Positions 1 through 21,273 of a stretch of 21,273 bases of DNA are shown here, in pieces. Under the pieces are notes generated by a model. It searched no databases and had not been told where the DNA came from. It was given only the letters and a program-made list of their open reading frames with translations. The position numbers and the translations under genes are program-made. Where the stretch lies: positions 1 to 21,273 of IMG/VR virus record IMGVR_UViG_3300046660_000798. One strand, 5' to 3'. Within the stretch, counting starts at the first letter, position 1. Every line of letters begins with the position of its first letter. This DNA comes from a virus.

Positions 1-252
1 TTAAGATTTCTTTCCTTCTTTTAATCCCTGAACTTCCTGCTGTAGTACATTGACTTGCCCTTCGAGGACTTTTAATCTGATCTCGTTGATTCTGCTTTGT
101 GTATCCTGGGAAGAGCGGATATCTTTAATATCTCCCTTCAATTGGAAGTAACCGGTCATTACAGAAACAACGATGCTTACGGTGCTGGCTATAGTCACTA
201 TCATATTCTTTATGGTGATGCCTCTGATCTCTCTATGTTCGAATGTTGTCAT
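1..252 (-). CDS. Small membrane protein with coiled coil, holin/lysis-associated candidate
   Basis: This 83-residue protein has a hydrophobic segment at about residues 15-36 and then a charged, heptad-like helical stretch (about 40-78) ending in a lysine-rich tail (EGKKS). One membrane span plus a coiled coil is the layout of several small phage membrane proteins, including holin or spanin partners and XhlA-like proteins, although XhlA proteins have the two parts in the opposite order. It follows the tail fibre gene after a 236-nt gap, a place where lysis genes often start. The stop codon is complete at the window edge. No Shine-Dalgarno motif precedes the ATG. I do not recognise the family, and a role in lysis is inference from position and topology only. 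Confidence 0.55.
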   Translation of the reverse strand: MTTFEHREIRGITIKNMIVTIASTVSIVVSVMTGYFQLKGDIKDIRSSQDTQSRINEIRLKVLEGQVNVLQQEVQGLKEGKKS

Positions 253-488: not shown

Positions 489-3368
489 TCACGAAACTGT
501 GACTTGTTTCCAATTCTGCCATGAGCCACCACTTTGAAGTAGGCCCCCTCGTATATACATTACAGCTTCCGCGCCCGGCGTCGAAGTTAGTTCCTGTCTT
601 GCAACCTGAGAATGCTTGGTGGTTACCAAGAGACCGTTTATCGGAAATCCTTGACTTGATGTAGCATATTCAATAGTTATTCCATTTGTATAGCTATTTG
701 GCAGAGCTGTACTCGGTGTTTCACCTACTCCTCGTTCAAAATAATATTGGACTGGAATTGTGGTATTAACAAGTTTAAAATCTGTCCAACCGTGATTACC
801 AGCTGTATCGAAAGAACCTACCCTAATGTACTCTATCGCTGAACCTTGATAACTTGTAAGTCTTTGAATGGTTGATAATGCAGCCCCATAACTCCCTTTT
901 GTTGTCACCAACATACCATTAATAGGCCAGCCGTTTCCTGCAAATACAAAATCAACGGACACGCCAAAAATGTAATTTGAAACTGGCGTATCTGGTGTTT
1001 TTCCAGAATCAGCACTATCAACATAGCTTGGAGAAACAACCTTTTGCACTTTAACCCAATCAGTAAAGGCGTTTCCCTGACTAACAAAGCCCGTCCTAAA
1101 ATATTCAACTGCTTCAGAACTTCCGTAATTATTTAATCTTTGAACTAATTGATCGTTCCCATTCTGCCCTCCCCTTGTTGTAAACATCAGGCCATTTACA
1201 GGAAAACCATCGGATATTAAAGCGAAATCTAATGATATGCCTAACGGGTAAGTAGATGGAACCGCAGCATTTGCGATTCCTGTTTGCCCTCTGTTGTTAA
1301 CTCCACCATTGCGATAAAATATTGGGAATAAAACCTCGAATGTTTTTGCAGCAATCTCTACATAGAAGGCGTTTTTTGGGTGTATATTCCCATTGCTATA
1401 AGCCAATAAGTAATCGCTCGAGCTTTTGCTGTCCTGAAACATGCCGTATATATCCATAAAACAGCACTGGTATTTTCTTGCAAGCGCCCGTAAACCGTTA
1501 TTAAGTTCTTCGTTCCATAACTGACCACGATGGTCGAGGTCGTCATCTTGTGTGGTGTTTTGCGATTGTAAAATAATGGCTAATTTATCCTGTGTGAAAT
1601 TAGAGTTCGCTCGTATGGTCGATAGACCAGTATCAAGACGGTCGATAATATCTTTCGGGGTTCCCGGATGAATCCATCCATCATTTATGCCCCATCGCAA
1701 AATAAGTACATCGGGGTTTGCAGCCAAATCGACGGCCAAATAGGTATCAAGCCAATCTTGTGATGTTTTACCCGATTGCCCGTTATTTATGTATGTAACG
1801 CCTGATTGAACATATTGACGTGCTGTTAAATCCTTTAAAACACTAACCGGGTCATACCCTGTTGTTGATCCAACCCCGTATGTAGTACTATCGCCTGATA
1901 AAACAATCGTTGTAGCGGTTTTTGCTATTAGCTTTTTGTGAAAAGATGACAAATATTCTTCACCAAAAACCATAGGGTATAAATCAGCATAAGCGGTGTT
2001 AATCTGTTGAGCCATATTTGCAGTTTGTTGCAATATTCTTGCACCACCCAGTATTTTACACCCATATTTATTAATCAAATTGGTAACTAAAAAGTCCCCT
2101 GTATCAAATATTACGGCGTTTGCCGCCAAAGCCGCATTCACAGCAACCGTATCATCCGTCACTCCATCGCCAACAGCACCATAATCAACCCGAAAAGATT
2201 TAATTTGTCCCGATGGCTCAGATGATCCACCGCTACCACCTCCTGAAGGTGCATTGATCCAATGCAAATCACCATCGCTATTGCTATTTTTCGCTAAGAT
2301 TTGTCCACTTGTCCCTCCAGTAGGAATCTTAAATAAACCGGTGATTTGTGCCTGCAGCTTTCCTAATGCTTGTAAAATGCTGTCAGTTGCCGATATTGCC
2401 GTGGAACTTCCAAAACCAATACCGGTGAGTATTGTGTTTAACACCCGCGACAAGGTGAAATATTTATTTGTAGTGCCTTCGGGTACGGCATCGGTTGTGC
2501 CGGGAGATGCAACAATTTGAATGTATGCCGATCCGCTCCACCTGTATTCGTTGTTAGTATCGGTAGTTATATAGATCTTTCCGGTTTCGCCGGTTACAGG
2601 TAGTGATGCATAATTTGCAACTTCCAGTACATCATCAACATAGCTGGGGAGCTGTGCCGACGCAATCTTTCCGCTGCCATCTAAGCCTGCGTAGCCGTTG
2701 GGCGTGTTTTTATTGTCGGTTTCTTCAAATTGAACACCCGATACTATCAGGGAGATTCCAGTGCCCCAAACACCTGCATTTTTAGGGCCAAATAAATAGT
2801 ACGACGCTGTATTAATATAGAAATCTCCATCGGTACCGAGACTGTTGGCCGGGTTGGTAGTACCGTTTAATATGGTTTTTCCATTGGTGCCATTGGTGCC
2901 GTTTGTTCCGCTTGTACCTTGTGGGCCCTGCGGCCCGGTTTGCATGGAAAATACCTGGCCCCAAGCCCCTCCGGTCTTTTTGTAAAAGATCCCGCTTACG
3001 GTATTTATAAAAGTGTCTCCATTGTTGCCTGTCGTTGTAGTTGGGGCTGTTGTGCCGTATAATACAGTTGTGTCTGTGCTGCCTCCTGCGGCAATAGTGT
3101 AAACAACAGTCCAAACACCTGATATTTTTTGAACGAAGGAACCTGCACTGGTATTGATAAATACATCACCATTTTTGCCGCTGGTATTTTGCGGAAGCAC
3201 CGGGCCAAAGGTTAGGTTGGCTCCTGCATTTAATCCCGAATTAATAAATTGAAGCAGGGTGGCAAAATCAAACTGGTAATCGGCGTTATTACTGATCAGG
3301 ATCGACCTATCGGAGGTATTTATAGTTTCTGCTATTGGTAGCTCGCTTATTTTTTTATCGTTTGCCAT
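489..3368 (-). CDS. Tail fibre/receptor-binding protein with SGNH esterase domain
   Basis: The 959-residue protein is modular. The N-terminus (1-50) carries KKISELP, typical of Bacteroidota phage fibre attachment ends. Three stalk repeats with a GDxFINT-type core lie at about 54-90, 104-141 and 166-209, with a weaker fourth at 251-285. A short collagen-like run (GPQGPQGTSGTNG) is at 145-163. A Gly/Ser linker (about 375-386) leads to a pectate-lyase-like opening, VDYGAVGDGVTDD (394-406), which is cut short. An SGNH hydrolase follows: GDS with Ser494, NNGQSG (528-533), GIND (560-563) and HP (His663). Three C-terminal repeats of about 70 residues (706-773, 798-866, 891-956) resemble pyocin-knob modules of phage fibres. 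It probably binds and deacylates a surface glycan. Its start overlaps the upstream stop by one base (TGATG), suggesting translational coupling. Confidence 0.85.
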   Translation of the reverse strand: MANDKKISELPIAETINTSDRSILISNNADYQFDFATLLQFINSGLNAGANLTFGPVLPQNTSGKNGDVFINTSAGSFVQKISGVWTVVYTIAAGGSTDTTVLYGTTAPTTTTGNNGDTFINTVSGIFYKKTGGAWGQVFSMQTGPQGPQGTSGTNGTNGTNGKTILNGTTNPANSLGTDGDFYINTASYYLFGPKNAGVWGTGISLIVSGVQFEETDNKNTPNGYAGLDGSGKIASAQLPSYVDDVLEVANYASLPVTGETGKIYITTDTNNEYRWSGSAYIQIVASPGTTDAVPEGTTNKYFTLSRVLNTILTGIGFGSSTAISATDSILQALGKLQAQITGLFKIPTGGTSGQILAKNSNSDGDLHWINAPSGGGSGGSSEPSGQIKSFRVDYGAVGDGVTDDTVAVNAALAANAVIFDTGDFLVTNLINKYGCKILGGARILQQTANMAQQINTAYADLYPMVFGEEYLSSFHKKLIAKTATTIVLSGDSTTYGVGSTTGYDPVSVLKDLTARQYVQSGVTYINNGQSGKTSQDWLDTYLAVDLAANPDVLILRWGINDGWIHPGTPKDIIDRLDTGLSTIRANSNFTQDKLAIILQSQNTTQDDDLDHRGQLWNEELNNGLRALARKYQCCFMDIYGMFQDSKSSSDYLLAYSNGNIHPKNAFYVEIAAKTFEVLFPIFYRNGGVNNRGQTGIANAAVPSTYPLGISLDFALISDGFPVNGLMFTTRGGQNGNDQLVQRLNNYGSSEAVEYFRTGFVSQGNAFTDWVKVQKVVSPSYVDSADSGKTPDTPVSNYIFGVSVDFVFAGNGWPINGMLVTTKGSYGAALSTIQRLTSYQGSAIEYIRVGSFDTAGNHGWTDFKLVNTTIPVQYYFERGVGETPSTALPNSYTNGITIEYATSSQGFPINGLLVTTKHSQVARQELTSTPGAEAVMYIRGGLLQSGGSWQNWKQVTVS

Positions 3369-9661: not shown

Positions 9662-12010
9662 TTAAAGATTTACACGGTTGATGGTTTGAGCTAATATATT
9701 TTGCTGATTGTTAATATCCTTAACATCAACATAAACAGGAGGGAAGTTATTGATCATTTGATAGGCCAGCGTATTGGCCAGATCTTTCACATCATTAACA
9801 GGCTGATTGTAATAGCGGTTAGCATTGCCCCCATCAGTAAAAATACCACCTATGGCATATCCCCGGCCAGGATTTGGTATCGAAAAGTCGCGACCTCCAT
9901 GTGCCACATTGATTGCACTTACCAGGTTACGGGCCCAGGGGTTGCGCATGGCTTCTGATACGACTATGGCTTCGCCCGATCGGAGGTAGGCATTGGTATT
10001 ATCGGTGCGACTATACCCCGATAACAATGCACCCCGGCCATCTGACTGATAGTGTAAACCGCCTTTAGCATATTGTGGTGGTTTTTGCGCCACGATGGTG
10101 GCAACCTGTATGGCCGTAGAAGCAATTATGCCGGGTATTACAAATGGTGCCAATATGCCGGTTTGTGAAGTAGCCTTGGTTACTGCTAATGCCCCGTTTA
10201 TAACAGCCTGCAGTATGGATGCCTTTTGCTCTGCTTTAAACGCTTTAATTTTTTCGGCAGCTTCTTTTTTCTGATATTTATCTTCGATAGCCTGGCGCTG
10301 TGTGTTGGTTAGGTTTTTATTACCTAACTCGGCCGCCTTATCCTTTTCGAGGCCTTTTATTTTGGCATCGCTTTGGGTTTTGATATTGTTTTGGATAATA
10401 GAAAATACCTTATCTGATACCTGTTGCGTGCTTTGCAGTGCAAACTCTGTACGTTGTTGCTCATATTGTTGTGTTAACTGGGTAATATCCTTCTGCTTTT
10501 GATCTTCCAGTGCCTTGATCTTCTCAGCATTACCGGCTACAAGGCTTATCTCGTAAGTGTATTTATCATCGATCAATTTTTTTTCGGCATTTAACTTTTC
10601 GCCAGGCAACAAAGCTTTATCAACATTTTTTTGATCTTTTTCCATTTTATCTTCATGCTGATGGGCGTCTATCATCGCCTGCATTTGCTTTTGAGCTTCG
10701 GCAAAATCATTCTTATTGAAAAACTGGATCTTATCGCCAATACCAAGATGGAATTTCTGTTGAAGTTGCTCGCTTTTTTTGTTGTAATTTTCCTGGCTGA
10801 TCAGCTTTTTATCCAGTTGTTTATTCAGTAACGCGAGCTCGGTATCGTAGTTTTGCTTATCGAGTTCAATTTGTTTGGCAAAGTCAATTGCTTTGGCTTG
10901 AAGAATCTCGGAGGAGCGGGTTTGTTCAATTGTCGATTTTTCTACCTTCTTATGAGGGATAATGGGGCCGCTGTTATTTGTTTTATCCGAACCGCTTTCA
11001 TTTAATTTTTTGTCCGATGAAATTAATTTTTGCCTTGCTTCAATTTCATCATATAATTTTTCATTTTGATCGTTTAATAATTTCGAATCTGTTGATAAAT
11101 CATAGATTATTTTGTCGCTGGCGTCAAGATCTTTAGCAAGAAGTCCTGAACTACGGGCCAATCCCTTGATAGTTTCGCCTTCGTCGTGAACAGGATTTTT
11201 TAAAGTATATTCATAGCGGCTATCTACTGCCGCTTTCTCTTTGATAATGTCAAGATTGTTCTTGCGTTCCTTTGCAATTTTTAAATCATTTTCCAGCGCC
11301 CTGCTTGCATTTGCAGAAATTTTACTTTTTGCCGCTTCAGCGTAGGCTGTTGCAAGAATTTGTTCTTTTAGATCCCCATAAGCGTTTGCGGCATCTCCTG
11401 CTATAATGGCTTCATCTTTCATATTTTTAAATGTTCCGGGCCATTGATCTTGTAACGCAGCTGCAGCTTTCTTTTTTTCGGCTATTGACAGCGTGTGGCT
11501 TTGTGTGGCCCGGTACAGAGCAGTTAAGTTAGTGATTTCACTCTGTGCCGCCTGGTCTCCTTTTAACTTGGTTTGTATGAGCGATTGGGTAATAATTGCA
11601 TTGTCTTTCATTGCCTTGCCTAAGGCTGAAAGCGTAGTTTGTCCCTTGATCATGTCGGCCACCCAGTCGATAATTACATCACTGTAACTGGCAAGCAAAG
11701 TGATTCCAACTGAGATAAGAGAATTCCATGATAAAAATGAGGATGCTAATTCCTTTAAAATATTTTTAGGCTTTTGCCCCGATGCTGCAAGTTCCTTGTT
11801 TTGCTCGTTTAGCTTTTGCATAGCATCTACCACTTCTGGTAGTTTCTCGCCAATAGCTTTAATTCCTTCTTTTAAACCATCCGAAAACTCGGGGAATTTG
11901 CTATTTACGCCGATAACGGCTTTTTTTAATTCATTTAAAGCATCAGTGTATTTTTTTGTCTTCTCGATATCATCATTGCTGATATCAAGCCTGTAGTTAT
12001 AGTTAGTCAT
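9662..12010 (-). CDS. Tail tape measure protein
   Basis: The 782-residue protein has the hallmarks of a tape measure. It is mostly alpha-helical and Lys/Glu/Gln-rich, with long coiled coils (about 360-600), a hydrophobic segment at 91-118 (SFLSWNSLISVGITLLASYS) and a second hydrophobic stretch at about 599-641 (ILQAVINGALAVTKA, then GIIASTAIQVATIVAQ). The Gly-rich C-terminus (KGGLHYQSDGRG, SGEAIVVSEAMRNPWAR) is typical of Bacteroidota phage tape measures. It sets tail length and may help DNA cross the membrane. At about 1.5 angstrom per residue, a general relation for the family, the tail would be near 115 nm. It lies 6.5 kb downstream of its chaperone gene, with tail-tip and accessory genes between. 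The leader is AACATAAAAAAT directly before ATG. Confidence 0.85.
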   Translation of the reverse strand: MTNYNYRLDISNDDIEKTKKYTDALNELKKAVIGVNSKFPEFSDGLKEGIKAIGEKLPEVVDAMQKLNEQNKELAASGQKPKNILKELASSFLSWNSLISVGITLLASYSDVIIDWVADMIKGQTTLSALGKAMKDNAIITQSLIQTKLKGDQAAQSEITNLTALYRATQSHTLSIAEKKKAAAALQDQWPGTFKNMKDEAIIAGDAANAYGDLKEQILATAYAEAAKSKISANASRALENDLKIAKERKNNLDIIKEKAAVDSRYEYTLKNPVHDEGETIKGLARSSGLLAKDLDASDKIIYDLSTDSKLLNDQNEKLYDEIEARQKLISSDKKLNESGSDKTNNSGPIIPHKKVEKSTIEQTRSSEILQAKAIDFAKQIELDKQNYDTELALLNKQLDKKLISQENYNKKSEQLQQKFHLGIGDKIQFFNKNDFAEAQKQMQAMIDAHQHEDKMEKDQKNVDKALLPGEKLNAEKKLIDDKYTYEISLVAGNAEKIKALEDQKQKDITQLTQQYEQQRTEFALQSTQQVSDKVFSIIQNNIKTQSDAKIKGLEKDKAAELGNKNLTNTQRQAIEDKYQKKEAAEKIKAFKAEQKASILQAVINGALAVTKATSQTGILAPFVIPGIIASTAIQVATIVAQKPPQYAKGGLHYQSDGRGALLSGYSRTDNTNAYLRSGEAIVVSEAMRNPWARNLVSAINVAHGGRDFSIPNPGRGYAIGGIFTDGGNANRYYNQPVNDVKDLANTLAYQMINNFPPVYVDVKDINNQQNILAQTINRVNL

Positions 12011-15493: not shown

Positions 15494-15943
15494 ATGCATG
15501 TAAAGTATTTTTTGATAATTGCCATATTGGCATGTGTGCTGGTATCATGCAAAAAAGATGATAAGGCAGCAAGCCCTGCAGTTACTATTGTGGGTAAATG
15601 GTACCTGAAAAAATACCATACCCGCAGCTATAAAAACAATGTACTGTTGAGGGATACCGCCCGTACAGATTACTCTGTTACTGATTTTGAAGTTTTTAGT
15701 AACGACGGTTCAGGCTATACTTCAAATCTGACCCCATCGGGCGAAACAGCACTTATTATATATCAATATACTTTGAATGGTAAAGTATTAACAATTAGCA
15801 AAACGACACCGGCATTTTACGAGGGCACTTACACTATTAATACACTTACCGAAAACGCACTTGAGGTAAGTTATGAAAGTAGGGTAACTATTAATGGCGA
15901 TCATTACTACGGTATTGATAACATTAGTTTTGCGAAAGAATAG
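15494..15943 (+). CDS. Surface lipoprotein, lipocalin-like (phage cargo gene)
   Basis: The 149-residue protein has a signal peptide and lipobox, LVSC with Cys19, followed by KKDD. In Bacteroidota a K-(D/E)2 motif after the Cys is a known lipoprotein export signal for the cell surface. The mature part, IVGKWYLKKYHTR at its start and a series of beta strands (TDFEVFSNDGSGYTS, YQYTLNGKVLTISK, YEGTYTINTLT), resembles the lipocalin-like domain common in Bacteroidota lipoproteins. It is the only rightward gene in the window, wedged between two tail-tip genes: convergent with the 701-residue gene (4 nt between stops) and divergent from the 682-residue gene. That layout suits a moron expressed from the prophage, perhaps altering the host surface. 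It has no obvious role in virion assembly. Confidence 0.75.
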   Translation: MHVKYFLIIAILACVLVSCKKDDKAASPAVTIVGKWYLKKYHTRSYKNNVLLRDTARTDYSVTDFEVFSNDGSGYTSNLTPSGETALIIYQYTLNGKVLTISKTTPAFYEGTYTINTLTENALEVSYESRVTINGDHYYGIDNISFAKE

Positions 15944-18077: not shown

Positions 18078-18518
18078 TTAAAAAACGTCAAAATACATGG
18101 TCGGTAGTGTAATGGTTAAGCCAACACCGGTAGTGTTAACATCAAACTTGTTATAAACCGGTACGCATTTGGCTTTTTGCCCCGCTTTGACCCTGAAGTA
18201 CCGGCCTTCGCCTTCGCGGTATTTTGAAGCGTTTACTACAAATTGGTTAGCGAGGTGCAGTGCTTGCGAGATGTAGGTTTCGTTTTCCGCAGTAAACTGT
18301 CCAAAATCTGTTTTGAATAAAAATTCTATGTAGATGGTAAAGGTGTTATCAACAGAGCCGTTAACCTGAGGACTTACTTCAATAGGTTGAAGCGGGTAAA
18401 GAAATACGCAGGGAAAAGTGACATCATCTGCAAGGGTATTCAGTTCGGATTGGGTGCCATAGGCAAATGCCGGACTGCCGGTGAGTGTTTGTACAATAGC
18501 TTCTATTTGGTTACGCAT
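18078..18518 (-). CDS. Tail terminator/completion-like protein
   Basis: The 146-residue protein starts MRNQIEAIVQTLTGSPAFAYG and contains DDVTFPCVFLYPLQPIEVSP and a strand-rich middle (NTFTIYIEFLFKTDFGQ) followed by a helix (YISQALHLANQFVVNASKY) and ends LTITLPTMYFDVF. The helix-strand-strand-helix-strand order and size fit tail terminator (gpU-like) proteins, which cap the tail and join it to the head, but the match is by shape rather than sequence. It lies between the chaperone and the first large tail-tip gene. A GC-rich element stands just upstream of its ATG. Confidence 0.45.
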   Translation of the reverse strand: MRNQIEAIVQTLTGSPAFAYGTQSELNTLADDVTFPCVFLYPLQPIEVSPQVNGSVDNTFTIYIEFLFKTDFGQFTAENETYISQALHLANQFVVNASKYREGEGRYFRVKAGQKAKCVPVYNKFDVNTTGVGLTITLPTMYFDVF

Positions 18519-18589: not shown

Positions 18590-18850
18590 TCAGATTGTAG
18601 TTTGAGATAGCTCGCTATATCGTTTTTGATATTCGGCTTCGGTTTTGTTGAGCAGTAGTTTGGTAAGTACCCGCTCATATGGCATACTCATGATCAGGTG
18701 CCATTTGGTAATATCGCCGCCTGTTAGTGAATTTACAGTGTTGATGTATTTGAATTTTTCGAACGATTGGATGCCCGCTCTTTTTTCAAGCGCGGTAGGA
18801 GCCGATGCCAAAAGCTTGTTTTCGGTATCGATAAGCTGGGATAACAAGTA
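18590..18850 (-). CDS. -1 frame extension of tail assembly chaperone (gpT-like part of GT fusion)
   Basis: This 86-codon frame overlaps the end of the chaperone gene in the -1 phase. Entry at 18850 by slippage on T TTT TTT would give a product of about 287 residues: chaperone residues 1-201, then YLLSQLIDTENKLL and a mainly helical domain ending AEYQKRYSELSQTTI. The only start available in this frame near the overlap is a TTG at 18847, with no ribosome-binding sequence, so independent translation is unlikely. In lambda the T part binds the tape measure; the same role is inferred. The translation reads as a well-formed protein (ALEKRAGIQSFEKFKYINTV; TKWHLIMSMPYERVLTKLLL), which supports real coding. 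Confidence 0.65.
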   Translation of the reverse strand, partial: YLLSQLIDTENKLLASAPTALEKRAGIQSFEKFKYINTVNSLTGGDITKWHLIMSMPYERVLTKLLLNKTEAEYQKRYSELSQTTI

Positions 18851-19452
18851 AAAAAATGCTTTGAGATGGGCAGCGCCTCCGTTACCCGTAGTTTTTTAAC
18901 TTCGTCTATAAAGCTTTCCACTTTGTATTCATTGTATTTTTTGCCTGTCGCCCGGCAATAGAAGTATTGAGCCAATACCTGGCAGCAGGCGTTTAATGAA
19001 GGATTAAAATGTTCCTGCCAATCATCTTCACCATATGTTTTTATATGGGTGTTTATTTCTTCGGCTATGATATCGCGTGCAGCCATAAACGCGCCGGCCG
19101 GTTCAACCGAAAGGTTTTGCATTACTTTTACTTTTGTTGTTTGGGGTGAGGTTCCATCAGTTCCAGGTACTGTAAAAACTACTTCTTTAGGGATCTCATT
19201 ACTGTTGTACAGATATTTGATCTGGTAGGATAATGAAAGCACTACATCACCAAACTGGTGCAGATCATCATAGTTTTTAATGTTCTGAAGCTCAGTAACC
19301 GGTATGCCCGAAAGGATGCTGATAGCCTCGATATCTGTTATATCCGGCTTAGCCTGTAAGTCCATCATTTGGCCAAGGGTTACTTCATTTAACTGTGTTG
19401 GCATCTGGATCTGCAGTTTGCCTTCGGTGGTTTTTAATATTCGTTCTGTCAT
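18733..19452 (-). CDS. Tail assembly chaperone (gpG-like)
   Basis: The 239-residue protein fits the chaperone family that prevents premature tape measure polymerisation. It has a helical N-terminal part (LNEVTLGQMMDLQ; AISILSGIPVTELQNI at 43-58), a mid region (VVLSLSYQIKYLY) and a C-terminal helix before KLRVTEALPISKHFF (187-201). After residue 201 the frame runs into a tail (about 38 residues) rich in basic residues and Ser/Thr/Asn, unlike the first 200. A T TTT TTT slippery heptamer sits exactly at codons 199-201 and the -1 frame stays open for another 86 residues. This matches the G/GT arrangement of lambda and many siphophages. It follows terminase by 41 nt and is 6.5 kb from the tape measure gene, further than usual. 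Confidence 0.7.
   Translation of the reverse strand: MTERILKTTEGKLQIQMPTQLNEVTLGQMMDLQAKPDITDIEAISILSGIPVTELQNIKNYDDLHQFGDVVLSLSYQIKYLYNSNEIPKEVVFTVPGTDGTSPQTTKVKVMQNLSVEPAGAFMAARDIIAEEINTHIKTYGEDDWQEHFNPSLNACCQVLAQYFYCRATGKKYNEYKVESFIDEVKKLRVTEALPISKHFFTCYPSLSIPKTSFWHRLLPRLKKERASNRSKNSNTSTL
18850..18856 (-). other. Programmed -1 frameshift site T_TTT_TTT
   Basis: On the minus strand the zero-frame codons CAT TTT TTT ACT (His199-Phe-Phe-Thr202) contain a perfect X_XXY_YYZ slippery heptamer of seven T. The zero frame continues 38 codons to a stop at 18733; the -1 frame continues to 18590. GGAGG lies about 19 nt upstream of the heptamer, rather far for an internal Shine-Dalgarno stimulator. 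No strong downstream hairpin is obvious by eye. Confidence 0.7.
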
Positions 19453-19493: not shown

Positions 19494-20753
19494 TTAGATA
19501 AGCCCGTGTAATGCGCTTATTTGCTGATTGCCTGGCTGGTGCGGAAGGCGTGACTGAAGTTTTCCGGCATTATGTATTTTTAATTTATTGAGGGCGATAT
19601 ACCTTAACGGATCTATTAAGTGGTTCCATGAATCAACTGGTTCATTAACCGTTTTGCCTGTTGCATCTGCACGCCATTTGTAACGGTTAAGCTCGTTGCG
19701 CAGGTTTACGCTGTTGCGGGTTACATTTATTTTGTAGCGTTTAAGAATATCGATAGAATTTTTAACACTATCTGCGCCTTTTTTTGCAGGGGTAATGCGC
19801 CATCCGAGGCGCTTTAACTCTTCTATTGATTTGGGCTCGGCGCTATCAGCAATAATTTCGTTGTTAATATTTACACCCGCCTCTTTTAGCTTTGTCGATA
19901 TATCCGTGTTGGTTAAACCCGTTTCATAAAACAACTCATTAGCCCACAGTTCGCCATTTTGCTGGTATAGTTCAAGGCACCCGGTTTCGTCGTTGGTAAA
20001 ACCAAAATCCAAACCGAGGGCTATCAAACGCGCATCTGCAGGAACAGATTCACAGATATACCAGTTATTAAATATGAGGCCTGTTATTTTGCCGGTTAAG
20101 CCCCGGGCATATACCTTCCATAATTCAATGTCAACAGCTTTTAGCGCTTCAATTTTATCTCGCACTTCAGGAGCTAAAAACGGGTTGTGCCTGTGATCGG
20201 ATACGATGAGCTGTACCCCTGGTTTGCCAATTAAGTGCTCGTGTACCCAGAAACCTGTATTGGGGTTGTAATCAATAAAAATACGTTTTTTAGTGCGTAA
20301 CGCCAGTTCTGTATATACATCCCATGTCAAACCATTGGCTTCATTTATAAACAGATAATCGCGCTTGCCGGATTTCGCGTCCTGGCTGTTGTCGTAGCTT
20401 TTAAACTCGATTATACTGCCGTTCAGAAATTCGAAAATGCGGTCGCTTTTATTGTAGTTTTTAATTTTTGCCTGTAATACCGGCGATGAGTTAAATATAT
20501 TCAATGCATCGCGCATTGCACCTGCTTTAAGGTTGGGAATATCCTGCCCAACTATAGTTATTACCTGCTTTGGACTTTCGCCTGCAATACAAAACAGCGC
20601 CTGCTCAATGGCAAATGTTTTACCGCTGCTGGTGCCTCCCTGGTTAATTACTATATGCGCGGTTGACTGATAATTTTGTTTGAACAGGATAGAACACTGA
20701 AAGCCTTCAGGCTCCTTTGATGTAATATCGGGGCTTGTTTCTTCATTGGTCAT
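19494..20753 (-). CDS. terL: Terminase large subunit
   Basis: The 419-residue protein has both terminase domains. The ATPase half has Walker A, GGTSSGKT (39-46, Lys45), a Walker B-type segment, DYLFINEAN (132-140, Glu138 as catalytic acid), and a coupling-type motif DYNP (161-164). The nuclease half has LDFGFTNDETG (248-258, Asp249), IADSAEP (301-307, Asp303) and DSWNHLIDPLRY (374-385, Asp381), the three acidic clusters of the RNase H-like fold. The arrangement is that of the Terminase_3/6 type. It pumps DNA through the portal and cuts it. It follows small terminase by 49 nt. No Shine-Dalgarno site precedes the ATG, only AATTAATAACA. The length is on the short side but both domains are complete. 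Confidence 0.93.
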   Translation of the reverse strand: MTNEETSPDITSKEPEGFQCSILFKQNYQSTAHIVINQGGTSSGKTFAIEQALFCIAGESPKQVITIVGQDIPNLKAGAMRDALNIFNSSPVLQAKIKNYNKSDRIFEFLNGSIIEFKSYDNSQDAKSGKRDYLFINEANGLTWDVYTELALRTKKRIFIDYNPNTGFWVHEHLIGKPGVQLIVSDHRHNPFLAPEVRDKIEALKAVDIELWKVYARGLTGKITGLIFNNWYICESVPADARLIALGLDFGFTNDETGCLELYQQNGELWANELFYETGLTNTDISTKLKEAGVNINNEIIADSAEPKSIEELKRLGWRITPAKKGADSVKNSIDILKRYKINVTRNSVNLRNELNRYKWRADATGKTVNEPVDSWNHLIDPLRYIALNKLKIHNAGKLQSRLPHQPGNQQISALHGLI

Positions 20754-20802: not shown

Positions 20803-21273
20803 TTATAGTTGTACATCTTTTTCGCTGTCGGCAGGGGGAGGGCCCGAGTTGAAGACCTTTACATTTAATATGTTTCCGGCTTCTGTGTTGGTTGGTGACG
20901 GTTCGCATTTCTCGTTCCATCCCATATTTTTTAACGCGAACATTGCCCCTGTTGTATTTTGATGCAAATGAGCTTCATAACAGGCTTCTACACGTAAAAT
21001 CCCTTGTTTAAGAGCTGGTGCAAACCTGCCGTTCTGTATATAATTGTTAAACTCCTGCCTGCTGTTAAAGCCAAGGGCAAGGGCCAGCCCTGATAGGGTC
21101 GCCGGTTCAGGTTCACGGTCCCAAACTTTGTGTTCAATAGTTTCTGCATTGTCTTTACTGTTTTTAATCGGTTTTTGTTCAAGGTGATATTTGCCCTGTA
21201 TGCGGACGAAATACTTGTCAATGAGCCGCTCAACCTGGGCAGCGTCATTAAAGGAAGATATATCGGGTTTCAT
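20803..21273 (-). CDS. terS: Terminase small subunit (DNA-packaging protein)
   Basis: The 156-residue protein contains the pattern of gp3-type small terminases of Bacteroidota phages: PATLSGLALALGFNSRQEF (57-75) as a helix-turn-helix, then RVEACYEAHLHQNTTGAMFA (94-113) and LKNMGWNEK (114-122). The helix-turn-helix would bind the packaging site and present DNA to the large subunit. It is first in the leftward gene series and directly before terL. The ATG coincides with the window edge, so an upstream start cannot be excluded; the sequence MKPDISSFNDAAQVERL looks like a natural N-terminus. The C-terminal 30 residues (SPTNTEAGNILNVKVFN on) are low-complexity, usual for this family. Confidence 0.82.
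   Translation of the reverse strand: MKPDISSFNDAAQVERLIDKYFVRIQGKYHLEQKPIKNSKDNAETIEHKVWDREPEPATLSGLALALGFNSRQEFNNYIQNGRFAPALKQGILRVEACYEAHLHQNTTGAMFALKNMGWNEKCEPSPTNTEAGNILNVKVFNSGPPPADSEKDVQL

Follow-up and report, generated by a model that had tools for sequence, protein, structure and literature searches.

In a phage-derived structural gene cluster of the soil bacterium Mucilaginibacter, the gene that directly follows the terminase large-subunit gene (terL) very likely gives rise to a fusion protein by −1 slippage on the heptanucleotide T TTT TTT (probability about 0.95). The cluster was analysed in a window of 21,273 nucleotides, positions 1 to 21,273 of the IMG/VR record IMGVR_UViG_3300046660_000798. 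This assessment draws on the retention of the T run in phase, on selection that acts on the −1 frame extension and not on the zero-frame tail, on distant homologues with T9 or T10 in the same phase and on homologues that encode both parts in a single frame. Ordinary reading to the zero-frame stop would yield a G-like protein of 239 residues, and a fraction of decoding events would slip back by one base on T TTT TTT and continue for 86 codons, giving a GT-like fusion (201 + 86 residues). The slip is very probably made by the ribosome. The gene probably encodes a tail-assembly chaperone, the long form of which would link the tail tube and the tape measure.

Slip site and reading frames

The features of the frameshifted gene are as follows.

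18733..19452, minus strand: zero-frame open reading frame (predicted G-like product), 239 codons/amino acids; ATG at 19452, stop at 18733-18735, stop included in the range
18850..19452, minus strand: N domain, residues 1-201, common to both predicted products; conserved; AlphaFold pLDDT 89
18850..18856, minus strand: slippery heptamer T TTT TTT, in X XXY YYZ phase at H199-F200-F201
18736..18849, minus strand: zero-frame tail past the slip site, 38 amino acids, overlapping the −1 frame; dN/dS about 1.0
18590..18850, minus strand: −1 frame extension (putative T-like domain), 86 amino acids plus stop at 18590-18592; dN/dS about 0.1

Direct reading of the minus strand gives ...PISK-CAT-TTT-TTT-ACT in the zero frame around the run. 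From the last T of the run the −1 frame reads YLLSQLIDTENK... and remains open for 86 codons; upstream of the run it is open for about 15 codons only. The initial annotation had placed an in-phase T7 run where the chaperone-like part ends (Phe201) and had described an 86-residue −1 extension without a proper start. These points are borne out: the heptamer lies at H199-F200-F201, at the end of the 201-residue domain, the extension is open from the last T to its stop, and the TTG at its third codon in the window is not conserved. As had also been anticipated, automated annotation splits the gene in two and misses the fusion. Runs of at least seven A or T are common in this AT-rich window (18 observed versus about 16 expected), so that the T7 run says little by itself and the claim depends on the relatives.

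Scans of viral contigs and bacterial genomes provided 108 distinct sequences with both parts, which were thinned at 95% DNA identity to 99 representatives. A T7 run, or a longer run containing it, is found at the same codons in all 108. All 107 uninterrupted genes have their C part in the −1 phase of the N part; the remaining gene (L041) has an upstream indel. The conservation in phase that the initial annotation had proposed to look for among relatives is therefore present, and no homologue combines a missing or out-of-phase run with separate starts for the two proteins; the homologues without a run are single-frame fusions.

Among the first 11 relatives, mean column identity is 88% in the extension versus 81% in the N part. 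Pairwise NG86 estimates of dN/dS, which are rough, are 0.10 for the extension past the overlap and 0.13 for the −1 frame within the overlap; the zero-frame tail encoded by the same DNA comes out at 1.03, which gives no sign of selection on it. An own start for the C domain is rejected, as no start codon is conserved among the 99 representatives, 83 of which lack ATG, GTG and TTG among the extension's first 12 codons. By these comparisons, selection maintains the fusion and not the zero-frame tail.

Homologues outside this set follow the same arrangement. T9 or T10 runs at this place and in this phase occur in distant copies within the genus, whose N parts are 28-53% identical. They also occur, again in −1 phase, in six homologues of other genomes, of which five come from the family sample and one comes from the genus sample. 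A further homologue (L269) and gene 3 of Elizabethkingia phage TCUEAP1 have no run and encode the N part and the C domain in a single continuous frame, which shows that the fused protein has meaning; because homologues without the slip site already have the frames joined, they serve as natural controls.

A constrained element upstream of the slip site and recurrent deletion

The initial annotation was correct about the slip site and missed a conserved element upstream of it, together with its tie to the length of the T run.

18868..18887, minus strand: upstream element GGGTAACGGAGGCGCTGCCC, 12-31 nt upstream of T7; possible hairpin, probable frameshift stimulator
18876..18880, minus strand: GGAGG core in the loop of the possible hairpin, complementary to CCUCC at the 3′ end of 16S rRNA

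Codons 189-195 (GGGTAACGGAGGCRCTGCCC, −31 to −12 from T7) form the strongest block of synonymous constraint in the gene, with synonymous conservation mostly 1.4-4.4 times the codon-usage expectation. Residue 189 is variable (Arg, Gly, Trp, Lys), yet GG at codon positions 2 and 3 is nearly always kept; in rows with Lys189 the potentially pairing Pro codon is CCT, CCA or CCG and never CCC. Residue 191 varies in some rows, and the first G of GGAGG is still kept. Judged from the alignment, the element is constrained beyond its amino acids. A 5-bp stem that places GGAGG in its loop has 94.4% of its cells paired, compared with 91.8% for shuffled and 36-60% for slid controls. Structure prediction on a 41-row alignment gives this stem. 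Only one pair of the stem covaries, RNAalifold returned no structure for the 99-row alignment and the folding of the window sequence alone is not unusual (z −0.75). A hairpin around GGAGG is thus modestly supported.

In the four genomes checked, the 16S 3′ end carries CCTCC, the complement of the GGAGG core. Nearly all sequences with GGAGG (97 of 98) have a short run, T7 in 85 and T8 in 12, the other having T9. The sequences without it have T9 or T10 in 16 of 17 cases, the remaining one having T7 and keeping GAGG, and six further homologues have T9 or T10 and no GGAGG. On the tree, few independent changes relate the element to run length, and many independent co-changes of the two are unsupported, since only two concordant pairs fall on supported branches. 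The simplest reading, which is suggestive only, is that the element compensates for a shorter slip run.

On balance we lean towards the element being a frameshift stimulator, in which case GGGTAACGGAGGCRCTGCCC would raise slipping at the short T7/T8 sites. In dnaX, the internal Shine-Dalgarno (SD) sequence lies about 10 nt upstream of the slip site. Frameshifting by −1 in Escherichia coli dnaX and in IS elements (PMC5009743) is similar to the present case in its homopolymer-type slip site and its SD-like sequence upstream; unlike in dnaX, the SD core here is 19 nt from T7, lies in a possible hairpin loop and belongs to a host phylum in which the anti-SD is hidden. Both the longer spacing and the hiding of the anti-SD by Bacteroidia ribosomes (PMC8710568) count against SD action by GGAGG. 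However, prfB of Bacteroidia, including all Sphingobacteriales analysed, has kept its recoding together with a strong SD-like sequence (PMC8710568), which leaves room for an internal SD despite the hidden anti-SD. Both cases retain an SD-like sequence close to a recoding site although the bacteria otherwise make no use of SD, and they differ in that prfB shifts by +1 at a stop codon with the SD adjoining the site, whereas the window gene would shift by −1 with a distant SD.

The element also adjoins a recurrent deletion. The window itself is intact, and the equivalent positions in it are as follows.

18862..18863, minus strand: equivalent of breakpoint A, between −7 and −6 of T7
174..175, minus strand: equivalent of breakpoint B, inside the holin-like gene
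1..252, minus strand: holin-like gene, 83 amino acids, named from its size, one predicted membrane stretch and its position

In seven genomes (L191, L194, L195, L196, L199, L201 and L202) the gene breaks off at ...CCCATNNC and is joined to the holin-like gene from its codon 27 onwards. The two points lie 18-22 kb apart in intact relatives, and the ends are base-identical in all seven; an eighth genome (L200) has the left breakpoint only. The probable capsid gene was found in none of these eight genomes, nor was the extension in the four tested. A quick tree requires eight changes for the eight deletion copies and excludes a single clade, so a single inherited event is rejected. Where close relatives of a copy are at hand, the sequences to the left and right of its junction each resemble those of its own clade. 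Old decay is unsupported as well: where it could be estimated, dN/dS of the N genes of deleted copies is like that of intact ones (DEL_L202 excepted), with no relaxed selection, and one such N gene shares 94% DNA identity with an intact copy. No second copy of the element that might act as a recombination partner was found in the window, and neither DNA constraint nor a visible motif at breakpoint B. Such repeated and recent deletion between identical bases suggests site-specific cutting or recombination. In another genome (L161:6243-8249) the tail genes past the chaperone gene are gone and an acyltransferase-like gene precedes tRNA-Leu, with breakpoints unlike those of the recurrent deletion.

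Other explanations bear on the split gene, on the agent of slippage and on the element. Homopolymer runs are the usual site of sequencing errors, and the split might accordingly be an error or the mark of a decayed gene; however, 107 relatives, found in isolates as well as metagenomes, are split in the same way and have both parts under strong selection, which refutes this reading, and we attach practically no weight to it. It is also conceivable, if rather improbable, that RNA polymerase slips on the T run, so that messages with an extra U are read normally into the −1 frame and the same products result. Runs of nine A or nine T induce slippage of bacterial RNA polymerase (PMC5009743), and the distant relatives have T9 or T10, but the window and most relatives have T7 only, placed without exception in the phase that tandem tRNA slippage requires, and a constrained SD-like element upstream better fits a ribosomal stimulator. 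The element could instead be a DNA site for a recombinase, a nuclease or the packaging machinery, with the frameshift needing the T run only. The main reason to keep this reading is the base-precise deletion that starts at the element: eight genomes have lost DNA from the same base just 3′ of it, seven with the same far end, and apparently independently. Against it, the element is present with a short T run and absent with a long one, no such motif occurs at breakpoint B and the breakpoints differ in at least one truncated copy; we hold a DNA role to be doubtful as a replacement for the stimulator.

Identity of the protein and its neighbourhood

The neighbouring genes in the window are as follows.

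20803..21273, minus strand: terminase small subunit
19494..20753, minus strand: terminase large subunit, directly upstream of the frameshifted gene
18078..18518, minus strand: next gene, 146 amino acids; sub-threshold match to Tail_completion_gp17 only
9662..12010, minus strand: probable tape-measure gene, from its length, coiled-coil/membrane make-up and a virion structural match

The cluster also contains genes for a portal, a head maturation protease and, by position, a probable capsid protein. A lipocalin-like lipoprotein gene, possibly a moron, lies on the opposite strand within the structural cluster (15494-15943, plus strand), and 489-3368 (minus strand) encodes a 959-residue tail-fibre-like protein with a GDSL lipase/acylhydrolase domain.

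The N domain is modelled confidently by AlphaFold (pLDDT 89) and the C domain, modelled alone, poorly (pLDDT 51). Comparison of the gene with known families gave no convincing PHROGs or Pfam match and no known G/GT family, and no convincing match to a known PDB fold was found for the N domain. A Foldseek search of the N domain against viral models returned uncharacterised phage proteins with TM scores of about 0.4-0.6, one of them (I6R9M9) from Nonlabens phage P12024S, and a weak match (E 3.4e-3) to a single protein whose annotation is tail assembly chaperone. In P12024S the gene after terL has the same length as I6R9M9, and we infer that the two are the same gene.

Conserved frameshifts in the tail genes of dsDNA phages, including lambda gpG/gpGT, were reportedly described by Xu, Hendrix and Duda in 2004, a study cited in PMC5009743. 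The lambda-type G/GT gene normally has the tail tube gene on one side and the tape-measure gene on the other. The window gene is like gpG/gpGT in its N product and C-terminally extended product, predicted to arise by a −1 slip at an in-phase heptamer within a tailed-phage structural cluster, and in a long form expected to be rare or minor. It is unlike gpG/gpGT in its T TTT TTT site, in its place after terL and several genes before the probable tape-measure gene, in the lack of detected sequence similarity, in its constrained upstream element and in having single-frame relatives. The description 'lambda-style G/GT' in the initial annotation accordingly stands for the mechanism and fails for a position beside the tape-measure gene and for a sequence match to a G/GT family.

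On the strength of architecture, context and the one weak structural match, a G/GT-like tail chaperone is the best reading of the gene and a likely one. The gene might alternatively encode another assembly or packaging factor that works beside the terminase. Its place directly after terL in the window, in TCUEAP1 (gene 3) and in Nonlabens phage P12024S would suit such a role, as would the missing chaperone-family match, but a C-terminal −1 extension in a tailed-phage structural cluster is a hallmark of G/GT and the structural match, although weak, is to an annotated tail assembly chaperone; we judge the alternative unlikely. We conclude that the gene likely acts like G/GT in mechanism, and we do not file it as a proven member of that family.

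Inheritance of the locus in Mucilaginibacter

The cluster is catalogued as a virus in IMG/VR, and the initial annotation had assigned it to a Bacteroidota phage. The gene is present in 109 of 150 genomes of the genus (genome completeness not given), and in 107 of these 109 it is in single copy. Host rpoB distances correlate with the distances of the N domain (r = 0.83, n = 28) and of TerL (r = 0.74, n = 26), and both of these also correlate with the distances of neighbouring host genes. On the upstream side, about 42 of 46 loci share one lipoprotein gene, and tRNA-Leu(gag), tRNA-Leu(cag) and tRNA-Lys are near the far end in many of the loci checked, L206, L207 and L210 excepted. No integrase was found within 100 kb in five of six genomes; the sixth, G001, has one outside the cluster at a distance of about 2 kb. 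The rest of the family yields few matches, and weaker ones. Co-divergence with the host and the single copy point to a locus that has long been passed on vertically, like gene transfer agents. A better description than 'Bacteroidota phage' is hence a vertically inherited, phage-derived Mucilaginibacter locus, which may be a domesticated prophage or a gene transfer agent and perhaps no ordinary virus.

Between the cluster and the lipoprotein gene (L126:2373-3402; L163:1182-1883 and relatives), a RES/Xre-type toxin-antitoxin pair is present in some genomes and an S24-peptidase repressor-like gene in others. A second, larger viral contig of 43 kb (L225, IMGVR_UViG_2651870109_000001) has a related holin-like gene and the same source genome number as L003; it is possibly a full-length prophage relative.

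Gene transfer agents such as RcGTA (PMC9662315) offer a parallel in their single-copy head-tail cluster, which co-diverges with the host and which automated tools label as viral, and partly in the lack of a nearby integrase, which applies to five of the six genomes here; the window locus differs in belonging to another phylum and is described here from genome sequences. No report of a gene transfer agent in Mucilaginibacter was found in a literature search. That the locus is itself a gene transfer agent is a tentative proposal, and one we rate as rather doubtful. A broader scheme appears improbable: an undescribed, genus-wide, vertically inherited particle (a gene transfer agent or similar), in which the slip site would have moved from T9 to T7 with a GGAGG hairpin that stimulates ribosomes with a hidden anti-SD, and in which the DNA would be cut site-specifically at the element.

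For G/GT-type recoding in Bacteroidota the locus is a natural example with deep sampling, and slippage appears to be secured in two ways, by a long T run or by a short one combined with an SD-like hairpin upstream. It allows a direct test of whether elongating Bacteroidota ribosomes use an internal SD for −1 shifting despite their hidden anti-SD. It also points to a phage-derived locus that co-diverges with a bacterial genus and to a base-precise, recurrent deletion that calls for a mechanism.
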